Notes under the pieces: generated by a model | What the model saw: only the letters and a program-made list of their open reading frames with translations | Told to the model about the DNA's origin: nothing | The model's database searches: none | Origin: a virus | Virus record (IMG/VR): IMGVR_UViG_3300012000_000013 | Span: 1 to 64,000 of that record | Length of the DNA stretch: 64,000 nucleotides | Direction: 5' to 3' (one strand) | Part shown: positions 107 through 3,753 of the stretch, one piece after another | Numbering within the stretch: the stretch's first letter is position 1 | Layout of the letters: every line of letters starts with the position of its first letter | Made by a program: the position numbers and the translations under genes

Positions 107-2047
107 TTAGCTAACTGGTCGTAACAGGTATCTCATCATATCATTATCATAGGCAGCTACTTGAGTTCCACCACTACTTCCTGTTTGAGTGTTATTAGTT
201 ATTGTTTTATTATCAATCACTTGATTGTTTGTGCCAGATGGTCTGTTAGCAGCAGCTAATGCTGTTGACGCTGAACCAAGTTTAGCACCAGAAGAAGGAG
301 TTCCATACATATTTTCAGCAAAAACAGTTTGACCAACCTGTTTACCGCCACTAGCTTGAAGTTTATCTAACCAACCGGTATTAGTTCCAGCACCATATGC
401 TTTTCTATTTGCTGCTGTGAAAGCATCTAAATTTTTAGAAATTCCAGATAATGATGAAGCACCTTCAGCAATCATCGCTTGAGATTTTGCATCAGGCCCC
501 TGTTTGAACATTGAACTTGGACCAGGATTATTTGCTGTACCTGTTACTGCTTGAAATTGATTTTTCTCCATTAATGTGTCAATAATACTTCCGCCATTCT
601 TTCTAGTTCTATTCAATATAACTGCCATCACATTAGCATATTCATCTTTATTTCTACTAGATTCGGCATAAACTGCTCTCATCAACATATCATATTCGTC
701 TGGAGTGATTGGTCGACCCAAATATTCTTCAATTGCTTTTTGTGAATCTCCTGAACCACCAATCTTTGATGGCGAAGTGGAAGATGAACCACCAGATTGT
801 CTTGCACCCTCATTTAATGCACCCAACTTTCCAACAAATCCTGTTTGTTGATTTTGTGGTGTTGGTGAAGTTTCTTCCATTGTTCCTGTTGTTGTTTCTT
901 TTTCTCCACTATTACTAAATTCTTTCCACAACTCATATATTTCCCATGCTGTCCAAATAGAAAATCCTAATTGAACTGCAGCTGCTACCCAACCAACAAG
1001 AGGTATTGTTGCTAAAGCACCTGCTTGTGCCAATTTTAGGCCTACTTTACCCCATAGTTGAGGAGATTTTTTAGCAACATAAGCTAAAAATTTACCCCAT
1101 GTAGATTTTGGAGTAGATTTTGCTAATTGACCAACAGACATTGTTCTTGCTTCCATTACAGCAGACGATGTTGCTTTACCTGCGGTAATTAATTTTGAAC
1201 CTGCACTAATCGCACTAGCGCCAGCAAGAGCACCACCAACACCGGCGGCTGTATTGACAAGAGTATCTCCAATATTAGATTTTTCTCCGTCTGGTGTTTC
1301 TAAACCAGTTTCATTTGGAGTTTCAGCAAAAACACCAGACGCACCAAGTAATGCACCTAATCCTAGTATTTTTCCTATTTTTGTTCCAATTAAAAATCTA
1401 AGTATTTTGAAAATTGCACCACCAAAAGCAGAGGCTGCTAACGCAGCTGTTCCAAGAAATCCGGTTAGTGAAGTTAATGGTTTGAGTATAGCACCAAAAA
1501 CACTTCCTACAGCTCCAAGTATTCCCAATAGACCAAATCCATCACCTTCTTTTTTTTCTTTTTTTGGTTCAACTTTAGTTGGTGATGTGCTTCTAGTGTT
1601 TTTATTAAATGTTGCTTCATAAGCATTTTCTCTAAATTTTGCATTAGAAAAATAATTATCAGCTTTTGTTGATGGAGTTGCACCTTGCAATTTTACCATT
1701 TTAGCAATATTCTTTTGCATAATGTTCATTTGCTCGGCAATACGAGGCAAAGACATTGAATTCTTAGCTGCTATTTTACCATTAATACTAATTTCTTGTA
1801 AAACACTTGAAGAACCAGAAGAAATGGCTTCAGAAACATTTGATACTTTACTTGAGCGGTCTATTGCTGAATAACCTTTACCAAAAACTTTACGACCAAC
1901 AATTGATCCTAGCCCAGACCCTCCAAAAAGAATGTTTCTAACATCCATTTTTTCTCGGTTAGACTTATTCAAAGCGGAAGCTGTTCCGCCAATTAAACCT
2001 TTGGTTTTATATTCTTGTTGTAATATGTCAGCTAATCTACTTGCCAT
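107..2047 (-). CDS. Membrane-active tail protein with cell-wall hydrolase domain (candidate tape measure)
   Basis: 646 aa. Residues 1-165 are polar and helical. About 170-245 and 330-375 hold several Gly/Ala-rich hydrophobic helices (LLGILGAVGSVFGAIL, LGLGALLGASGVF, ATIPLVGWVAAAVQLGF). About 440-580 resembles the SleB/CwlJ-type cell-wall hydrolase family (GRPITPDEYDMLMRAVYAES, then NVMAVILNRTR and NQFQAV), with the usual early Glu in AVYAES. The C-terminus is Thr/Asn-rich. It lies 2 nt downstream of the gp26/gp51-like pair, the position of a tape measure after its frameshifted chaperones in lambda-type phages, and its length is close to T4 gp29 (590 aa). Membrane-inserting helices plus a muralytic domain fit a protein ejected into the envelope during infection. 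Seen: the domains and order. Inferred: the tape-measure role. Alternative: a separate virion-associated lysin. Confidence 0.6.
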   Translation of the reverse strand: MASRLADILQQEYKTKGLIGGTASALNKSNREKMDVRNILFGGSGLGSIVGRKVFGKGYSAIDRSSKVSNVSEAISSGSSSVLQEISINGKIAAKNSMSLPRIAEQMNIMQKNIAKMVKLQGATPSTKADNYFSNAKFRENAYEATFNKNTRSTSPTKVEPKKEKKEGDGFGLLGILGAVGSVFGAILKPLTSLTGFLGTAALAASAFGGAIFKILRFLIGTKIGKILGLGALLGASGVFAETPNETGLETPDGEKSNIGDTLVNTAAGVGGALAGASAISAGSKLITAGKATSSAVMEARTMSVGQLAKSTPKSTWGKFLAYVAKKSPQLWGKVGLKLAQAGALATIPLVGWVAAAVQLGFSIWTAWEIYELWKEFSNSGEKETTTGTMEETSPTPQNQQTGFVGKLGALNEGARQSGGSSSTSPSKIGGSGDSQKAIEEYLGRPITPDEYDMLMRAVYAESSRNKDEYANVMAVILNRTRKNGGSIIDTLMEKNQFQAVTGTANNPGPSSMFKQGPDAKSQAMIAEGASSLSGISKNLDAFTAANRKAYGAGTNTGWLDKLQASGGKQVGQTVFAENMYGTPSSGAKLGSASTALAAANRPSGTNNQVIDNKTITNNTQTGSSGGTQVAAYDNDMMRYLLRPVS

Positions 2048-2049
2048 TT

Positions 2050-2241
2050 TTAATGCCTTTGCATTTGTTTAATCTTCTCGTTTTCTTCTTCCAGATATCT
2101 CATTAGCATATTCACATAGATATCTCTTTCCCAAGGTAACATATTTTCCAATTCAGTCAAACTATACTTGTGATGTTGCATTAAAGCAAAGTTTGTTTGA
2201 TAATAGTTCGTCAGGTTTTCATAACCAAAACTTATACGAAA
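2050..2241 (-). CDS. 51: gp51-like reading frame, apparently expressed by -1 frameshift from gp26
   Basis: A 63-codon frame in the -1 phase of gp26 that overlaps the gp26 3' end and stops 2 nt before the next gene. The product (YENLTNYYQTNFALMQHHKY, then SLTELENMLPWERDIYVNML and a charged helical end) looks like the small baseplate-hub assembly protein found at the gp51 position in T4-like marine phages. The HHKYSLTELENM stretch also recalls the T-type tail chaperones. The first ATG (2181) has no ribosome site and would discard 20 codons of convincing coding sequence, and no GTG or TTG lies upstream. A slippery AAATTTT (2241-2247) falls exactly where the two frames can be joined. The fusion product would be about 305 aa. 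If translation instead starts at 2181 the product is 43 aa. Confidence 0.6.
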   Translation of the reverse strand, partial: FRISFGYENLTNYYQTNFALMQHHKYSLTELENMLPWERDIYVNMLMRYLEEENEKIKQMQRH

Positions 2242-2966
2242 AAATTTTGAATTCCTTCTACTTCAATTTTTTCTTCGTGGCCACATTTATTGCATTTAAA
2301 ATCTACATCTTTTCTTATCTTTGGCATCGTGTCAAAGAAATTTTTAATTTTTTCCAAATCTTTACTCTGCATGGATTCTATAAATTCAATTAAATCTTCC
2401 TCTTGAGAATCTTTTGCATAATAAATTTTATCGGCATCATACACATAATCAATACAATTTACTGTCATTTTAATAATTGAATCCGCTTCTGATACATCTT
2501 TAAATTTTTTAAGAGTTTCAAAATTTGGATATTTCATTACAATACCAAGTTTTTCAGTAATTTGAATTTTATTTGTATGTCCTTCTTGTTTTTCTGGATG
2601 AATATCTAAAACATTTAAATCAATTTGAACAACATTATTACATTTTTTTTCTTCTTTAGTTTCTTCATCCAAAACATCATTATTGCATTTATATTTTAGA
2701 TTCACCACTTCTCCTATTGACCTTGCACGAATATTTAAAAATAAATGTTCAATGTCAAATAAAGGTAAAGAATCTGCTTGAAACTCATCTAAAATACAAT
2801 TATTAAGAATCTGTTTAATTGTATCAACAATCGTAGTTAAATCTTCACCTTCATTAGCCATCAAAAAGAGTTTTTCTTCTTTTACTGTAAATGGTCTAAA
2901 TCGCAAGCTTTTGCCGGTGGACAATAACTTTACATTATAAATGGGCACATCAATTTTAGGTAACAT
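2232..2966 (-). CDS. 26: gp26-like baseplate hub assembly protein
   Basis: 244 aa, similar in kind to T4 gp26 (208 aa), a factor needed to build the baseplate hub. The N-terminus (MLPKIDVPIYNVKLLSTGKS, then FRPFTVKEEKLFLMA) is the typical opening of the family. Four cysteines (C94, C109, C225 and C228; KCNKCGHEEKI near the end) could form a split zinc ribbon. It lies downstream of the gp54-like gene with a GAGG ribosome site, and its 3' end carries the slippery site leading into the gp51-like frame. A short form with a rarer extended form is the logic of tail-tube chaperones such as lambda G/GT. The family assignment is fairly secure; the chaperone parallel is inference. Confidence 0.8.
   Translation of the reverse strand: MLPKIDVPIYNVKLLSTGKSLRFRPFTVKEEKLFLMANEGEDLTTIVDTIKQILNNCILDEFQADSLPLFDIEHLFLNIRARSIGEVVNLKYKCNNDVLDEETKEEKKCNNVVQIDLNVLDIHPEKQEGHTNKIQITEKLGIVMKYPNFETLKKFKDVSEADSIIKMTVNCIDYVYDADKIYYAKDSQEEDLIEFIESMQSKDLEKIKNFFDTMPKIRKDVDFKCNKCGHEEKIEVEGIQNFFV
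2241..2247 (-). promoter_or_regulatory. Candidate -1 programmed frameshift heptamer A AAT TTT
   Basis: In the gp26 frame the minus-strand codons are CAA AAT TTT TTC GTA TAA, giving the X XXY YYZ pattern A AAT TTT. A Shine-Dalgarno-like AGAAGGA lies 5 nt upstream of it, a typical bacterial stimulator, and weak hairpins (for example GGTT-ATGAA-AACC) lie downstream. Slipping by -1 enters the gp51-like frame directly. The motif is seen; its activity is inferred. Confidence 0.55.
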
Positions 2967-2982
2967 ATTAAATCCTCATAAA

Positions 2983-3753
2983 TTAAAAAATCTTTGCAAG
3001 CGTTTTTCCTATTGTATTGTTAATAGAATTTCCTGCTCTATCAAAAAAAGGCGCAGCTTTAACACCAAACAAAGCACTAGCGGCTGCAGCCAAATCATAA
3101 CTACCTTCGTATATAACTTTATATCGCTGATATGCAAACTGTACCGATAACCGATGAAAGTTATCTTCTGACCAATTTAATGGTTGTGCAGCCACACCAA
3201 TTGGAAAAGCATCAACCAATTCTACTGAGTAAATCTTTTTAATAAAATCATCATATTGAATAATTGTGATATTGCACATATAACGAGTTGAGTTTCCTTT
3301 TGGAAATCTCATATTGTTTGTGTCTGACGGATGGATTGCTTCTATCCAACGGTCAAACAGTTTTCTCTCATAGAAATCATTTGTGCAAATAAATCCTAAA
3401 TTAATATCATTGTATTGTGATTGATATGGCACTTTAAATGTGGGGCCGTAAATCTTAACATCCTGTGTTAATAATGTTCGACCGGGCAACTCAGCAGTTT
3501 CACATTGTAAAGCTAAGTAACGAGATAAAGAAGCATTGGTTGTTCTTGTTGCTGGATCCTGAGGTGCTGAAAAGATATCAGTTACAGATGATACAATATT
3601 ATTTGGTAAATTAATCAATTGTTCAAGAACTGAATTACCTACAAATGAATTGATATAACTTGGAATAGGAAGAATCACCTCAAACCTAGAAGGTTTTGCC
3701 GGGCCATCGTGTGCTTTAATGTTAGTTAAAAATAATTGTGGTGAAAAAGACAT
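2983..3753 (-). CDS. 54: gp54-like baseplate tail-tube initiator
   Basis: 256 aa. The body has the tail-tube-like pattern of gp19-fold proteins: RFEVILPIP near the start, ALQCETAELPGRTLL around residues 82-96, then KIYGPTFKVPYQSQYND and DFYERKLFDRWIEAIH, and a late VELVDAFPIGVAAQPLNWS strand. Compare gp19 in this window (CKTAQLPGTTVG, FERWLNGI). In T4, gp54 (320 aa) sits on gp48 and starts tube polymerisation. A Gly/Ala-rich helical tail follows residue 225. Its first codon overlaps the stop region of the upstream 192-aa gene, so the two are translationally coupled. It could instead be another tube-fold hub protein, but gp48 is accounted for elsewhere in the window. Confidence 0.65.
   Translation of the reverse strand: MSFSPQLFLTNIKAHDGPAKPSRFEVILPIPSYINSFVGNSVLEQLINLPNNIVSSVTDIFSAPQDPATRTTNASLSRYLALQCETAELPGRTLLTQDVKIYGPTFKVPYQSQYNDINLGFICTNDFYERKLFDRWIEAIHPSDTNNMRFPKGNSTRYMCNITIIQYDDFIKKIYSVELVDAFPIGVAAQPLNWSEDNFHRLSVQFAYQRYKVIYEGSYDLAAAASALFGVKAAPFFDRAGNSINNTIGKTLAKIF

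Follow-up and report, generated by a model that had tools for sequence, protein, structure and literature searches.

Gene organization at the gp26 locus

The window, by which we mean the whole 64,000-nucleotide stretch of viral DNA analysed (positions 1 to 64,000 of IMG/VR record IMGVR_UViG_3300012000_000013), carries gene 26 on the minus strand, with a tail-tube-like gene upstream and a probable tape measure gene downstream (Table 1). The gp26 protein belongs to the Pfam family T4_baseplate (PF12322; E 1.2e-63, 215 bits against a family cut-off of 24.5) and matches the profile phrog_150 (E 7e-69). Its gene ends GAA GGA ATT CAA AAT TTT TTC GTA TAA on the minus strand; all sequence statements in a preliminary description of this DNA, including the gp26 end CAA AAT TTT TTC GTA TAA, check out. 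No second, T4-style separate long copy of gp26 was found in the record from which the window derives (65.7 kb, completeness not established). Residues C94, C109, C225 and C228 of gp26 form a zinc-ribbon-like cysteine pattern that is conserved in many non-cyanophage relatives; most of these residues are absent from gp26 of the cyanophages P-SSM2, S-RIM44 and P-HM1.

The −1 frame at the end of gene 26 is open from 2262 to 2050 and closes with a TAA at 2052–2050, 2 nt before the ATG (2047) of the next gene, as had been described; counted from the slip site defined below, it spans 64 codons. The encoded extension is recognized by phrog_634, the gp51 profile named 'baseplate hub assembly catalyst' (E 1e-27). 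It also aligns with the final 50 positions of the gp26 profile phrog_150 (E 4e-7), a hint that the gp26 and tail parts share one protein in some phrog_150 members; T4 gp51 is such a case. The sole Pfam match of the extension, Stealth_CR2, is sub-threshold and was judged spurious.

Table 1 Features at the gp26 locus of the window
Feature	Position	Strand	Description
Tail-tube-like protein, upstream	2983..3753	−	phrog_45 / gp19-like
Gene 26	2966-2232	−	244 aa; predicted short chaperone form (TAC-N-like); PF12322 T4_baseplate
AGAAGGA, internal SD-like element	2253..2259	−	8 nt upstream of heptamer; possible stimulator
A AAT TTT, heptamer of the preliminary description	2247-2241	−	partly conserved
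Slippery heptamer T TTT TTC (U UUU UUC)	2244-2238	−	0-frame NNT TTT TTC, two codons before gp26 stop; conserved, 119/119 representatives
−1 frame extension, 'gp51'	2050..2243	−	predicted C-terminal domain of long form; FFRISFGYENL...QRH
gp26 stop TAA	2232..2234	−	would be bypassed by frameshift
First −1 frame ATG	2179..2181	−	codon 21 from slip site; internal Met codon of extension, no SD-like element
Next gene, probable tape measure protein	107..2047	−	646 aa, hydrophobic segments, C-terminal hydrolase-like domain

The locus had been placed directly before the tape measure gene. Its position directly before the next gene holds, and in most of 98 readable relatives the downstream gene likewise starts no more than about 10 nt from the end of the extension. 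The identity of that gene as a tape measure gene is probable, not proved: some homologues in the downstream slot match tape-measure PHROGs, and the window protein itself matches none. Proteins in this slot (L008–L108) have similar N termini in close relatives and muralytic domains that differ between phages (Hydrolase_2, phage lysozyme, SLT and M23). Differing muralytic domains are frequent in tape measure proteins.

A slippery heptamer is conserved at the end of gene 26

We compared the locus with 80 IMG/VR relatives, 80 partly overlapping loci from a wider profile scan and named phages, and reduced these to 125 representatives, defined as distinct gp26 homologues with less than 85% identity. 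Of the 125, 119 have a heptamer T TTT TTC, T TTT TTT or T TTT TTA close to the gp26 end, phased as NNT TTT TTN. The six exceptions are T4, Klebsiella phage Marfa and four phages of or near Ackermannviridae, so that outside Tevenvirinae and Ackermannviridae all 119 relatives carry it, among them the isolates KVP40, PhiW-14, phiM7, CC2, BUCT608, OLIVR5, P-SSM2, S-RIM44, P-HM1 and Melnitz. Homologues with a stand-alone gp51 and no conserved slippery site had been named in advance as evidence against a frameshift; outside Ackermannviridae and T4-type phages, every homologue has the site.

The preliminary description had placed slipping on A AAT TTT. This heptamer is present in the window but only in part of the relatives, most of which read AGT TTT TTC; we therefore reject it as the main slip site and take the conserved T TTT TTC, 3 nt downstream, as the working heptamer. 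The same junction peptide, QNFFRISFGYENL, is expected from either.

Codon choice at the heptamer is strongly constrained. The first Phe codon is TTT in 119 of 119 genes, against a background of 1060 TTT and 366 TTC codons in the same genes, and it is TTT even in genes of 0.53-0.55 GC, which favour TTC; the codon before it ends in T in all 119. With each gene's own codon usage, the two synonymous third positions give log10 P of -18.8 and -16.3, values that treat relatives as independent and so overstate significance. Judged by codon usage, conservation of the heptamer is far beyond chance. Read as a gp26 codon, the triplet that follows varies (V 38, G 35, E 10, A 9, S 4, D 4 and others, with a stop in 14 genes), whereas the −1 codon overlapping it encodes Arg in 92 of 119. 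Since the gp26 residue varies and the −1 Arg is kept, the −1 frame appears to be selected already upstream of the gp26 stop. In one relative (L162), the heptamer is T TTT TTA: the second gp26 Phe is lost, and the slip site and the −1 frame FFRI are retained. This pattern of substitutions indicates that the constraint on the heptamer reflects decoding, beyond mere protein conservation.

A stimulatory role had been proposed for the AGAAGGA element, which is present as described. An SD-like GAAGG or GAGGG lies 8-9 nt upstream of the heptamer in nearly all relatives, with a mean anti-SD pairing energy of -6.3 compared with -1.2 elsewhere, and pairing is stronger than the gene mean in 117 of 119. 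A synonymous control reveals no excess over the constraint from conserved Glu-Gly codons (z -0.8); these codons explain most of the signal, and we therefore leave a role as stimulator as possible. No strong conserved 3′ stem-loop was found; the 50 nt downstream fold weakly better than shuffled sequence (mean z -0.7).

Substitutions point to selection on the −1 frame ahead of its first ATG

No ATG, GTG or TTG precedes the ATG at 2181 in the −1 frame of the window, which leaves its first 20 codons start-less, and no SD-like match was found at that ATG; both points had been made before. The ATG at codon 21 is kept in 57 of 113 complete relatives, and 17 of the 113 have their first ATG at codons 2-5, close to the gp26 stop. 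We analysed substitutions in codons 5-19 of the 55 tails (the window and 54 relatives) that have no ATG, GTG or TTG in codons 0-19. The third position of the −1 frame accounts for 54% of them, and single changes comprise 4299 synonymous and 3125 non-synonymous in the −1 frame versus 1677/5506 and 746/6549 in the other frames, a large contrast among pairs that are not independent. By this measure purifying selection acts on the −1 frame ahead of its first ATG, in agreement with the earlier impression that these start-less codons look coding.

Searching with the gp51 tail by tblastn recovers at least 571 phage records. Of the records examined, some leave the tail without annotation and others list it as a hypothetical protein or a separate 'baseplate hub assembly catalyst'; none joins it to gp26. 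For ACG-2014b, ORM_20 and ACP17 (L178, L179 and L180) the slippery site and tail are present and public records annotate no gp51. In one contig (L030) gp26 stops early, about 140 nt upstream of its usual end, with the tail intact, probably owing to an indel in that contig.

Most records treat gp51 as a separate small protein, whose translation would rely on reinitiation or coupling once gp26 has terminated. The two CDSs of public records agree with such a product, and an ATG overlaps the gp26 stop in KVP40, PhiW-14 and BUCT608 and, in or near Ackermannviridae, in VAP7, K475 and Ds3CZ. Yet the 55 start-less tails are nonetheless under −1 frame selection, the −1 Arg ahead of the gp26 stop is conserved, only 4 of 113 complete tails combine an early start codon with an SD-like element, the slippery site is retained even where an ATG exists, and T4 gp51 itself contains a gp26-like domain. 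We consider it very unlikely that gp51 is made solely in this way.

RNA polymerase slippage, in which one U added on the T run would create the fusion, is marginally less probable still. In its favour are a homopolymeric run (6-7 T) and a nearly identical expected product, but 6 nt is short for transcriptional slippage, the run always lies in X XXY YYZ phase (a phase partly forced by Phe-Phe coding), and the third bases seen (C, T and A) are exactly those that ribosomal slippage tolerates. An open frame arising by accident, or from an indel introduced in sequencing or assembly, has a negligible chance of explaining the locus and is refuted by conservation of the same −1 phase in independent contigs and closed isolate genomes.

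The predicted fusion has the architecture of T4 gp51

In T4 gp51 (249 aa), residues 1-201 form a PF12322 domain (E 3.9e-52), after which comes the tail domain (phrog_634); hhalign places the alignment of extensions on residues 200-243 of T4 gp51 (E 3.4e-5). Because T4 gp51 is a gp26-like domain joined to the same tail, the predicted fusion of about 305 aa has, at the level of domains, the full-length T4 gp51 architecture. Both parts are encoded in the window; their union in a single protein depends on the frameshift.

An AlphaFold2 model of gp26 has a pLDDT of 84 over its full length and 87 over residues 1-90. Foldseek with the full-length model gave no significant match. With residues 1-90, the top two PDB matches were 2ob9 (HK97 chaperone gp13) and 3fgx, at probabilities of 0.93 and 0.94, TM about 0.5 and E of 0.06-0.11 (0.064 and 0.11, none below 0.05); both structures are termed tail assembly chaperones (PMC9603447). 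The modelled N-terminal domain of gp26 best matches tail-assembly chaperone folds, a likeness that is suggestive and not significant by E-value. At the sequence level, gp26 showed no homology to lambda G or P2 E.

Some lineages arrange gene 51 differently

In T4 and Klebsiella phage Marfa, gene 51 is separate, full-length and on the opposite strand. KVP40, PhiW-14, BUCT608 and phiM7 (T TTT TTT) keep the slippery site together with an ATG that overlaps the gp26 stop, so relatives with an ATG near this stop could make free gp51 as well. In Ackermannviridae, T TTT TTC is absent and the gp51-like tail still lies in the same −1 phase. TAATG is found in Agtrevirus, Limestonevirus and VAP7, and in K475, which is related; at the TAATG position, Kuttervirus and Taipeivirus read ATT, and they have no early ATG. 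Tails in −1 phase without T TTT TTC were seen in L086 (3730-3760), L182, L183, L184, L185, L095 and L097 (Ackermannviridae and Vibrio phage K475).

We offer one tentative and rather doubtful scenario for these differences. In marine and freshwater T4-like phages the long form would require frameshifting at a nearly invariant U UUU UUC. Individual lineages would have replaced this, T4 with its duplicated and fused gene 51 and Ackermannviridae with starts that overlap the stop, and KVP40, PhiW-14 and BUCT608 would make fused and free gp51 from one message.

Discussion

We propose that gene 26 very probably encodes both forms of a tail-assembly chaperone, through a −1 frameshift at U UUU UUC that joins gp26 to the gp51 domain. 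The conserved site, the constant −1 phase, the selection that acts on the −1 frame and the architecture shared with T4 gp51 together give strong comparative support to the earlier proposal of a programmed −1 frameshift resembling that of lambda G/GT. In the mechanism that we infer, from the slip and its efficiency to the action as a chaperone, the majority of ribosomes would terminate at the gp26 UAA and produce the short form. A minority would slip back by one base with tRNA-Phe in the P and A sites on U UUU UUC, possibly assisted by the SD-like element, and would continue in the −1 frame beyond the gp26 stop to give a long form in which gp26 residues 1-243 are followed by 62 from the gp51 domain. 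If the two forms act as in lambda G/GT and P2 E/E′, the short one would coat the tape measure protein made from the next gene, and recruitment of tube subunits would fall to the long one. The architecture of gp51, the chaperone-fold matches of the N-terminal domain and the probable tape measure gene next in order are the reasons for reading the mechanism, by analogy, as −1 frameshifting of the lambda G/GT and P2 E/E′ kind.

Several known systems resemble this arrangement. In lambda, a short and a frameshifted long chaperone are made in the order tube - G - T - tape measure (V-G-T-H), the same order as here, where the tape measure is probable; lambda differs in its slippery sequence, GGGAAAG, and no sequence homology between it and gp26 was found. 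Phage P2 has a contractile tail and produces E and E+E′ by shifting to −1 at T TTT TTG, immediately ahead of tape measure gene T; in P2 the slip site and the stop downstream of it are further apart, and gpE has no detectable sequence homology to gp26. The TAC locus of Vandenendeviridae and Andersonviridae (phage Adele, PMC12846349) shares an uninterrupted −1 extension, a poly-T slip motif and a position before the tape measure gene; its motif is GTTTTT, in contrast to the full T TTT TTC here.

The preliminary description gave no precedent for such a frameshift in gp26/gp51, yet the kind is established: as reported in PMC10885494 and PMC12846349, tail chaperones of T4-like phages were identified by Vladimirov, Gautam & Davidson 2022 (Virology 566:9-15). 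According to these citing papers, some T4-like phages have separate short and long chaperone genes (PMC10885494), and poly-T is a known −1 slippery signal in TAC-N genes of T4-like phages (PMC12846349). On our reading, the T4-like gp26/gp51 of Vladimirov et al., as represented there, is the same protein pair, T4 gp51 being gp26-like with the same tail; in T4 the long form comes from the separate gene on the opposite strand, whereas here it must come from frameshifting. In the literature compared, which represents Vladimirov et al. 2022 through these citing papers, we found no description by name of a frameshift for cyanophage-type gp26/gp51. The frameshifting chaperone is therefore known in outline and novelty is modest; the gain is a corrected annotation and no new system.

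Cyanophage gp51 has been noted as seemingly about 200 residues short relative to T4 (PMC3037559). Read as the second half of the predicted frameshifted protein, this 'short gp51' would account for the residues lacking. Reading the tail as the frameshifted C terminus of gp26 would correct annotations in phage records, and abundant ocean phages would gain a defined, testable tail-length chaperone.
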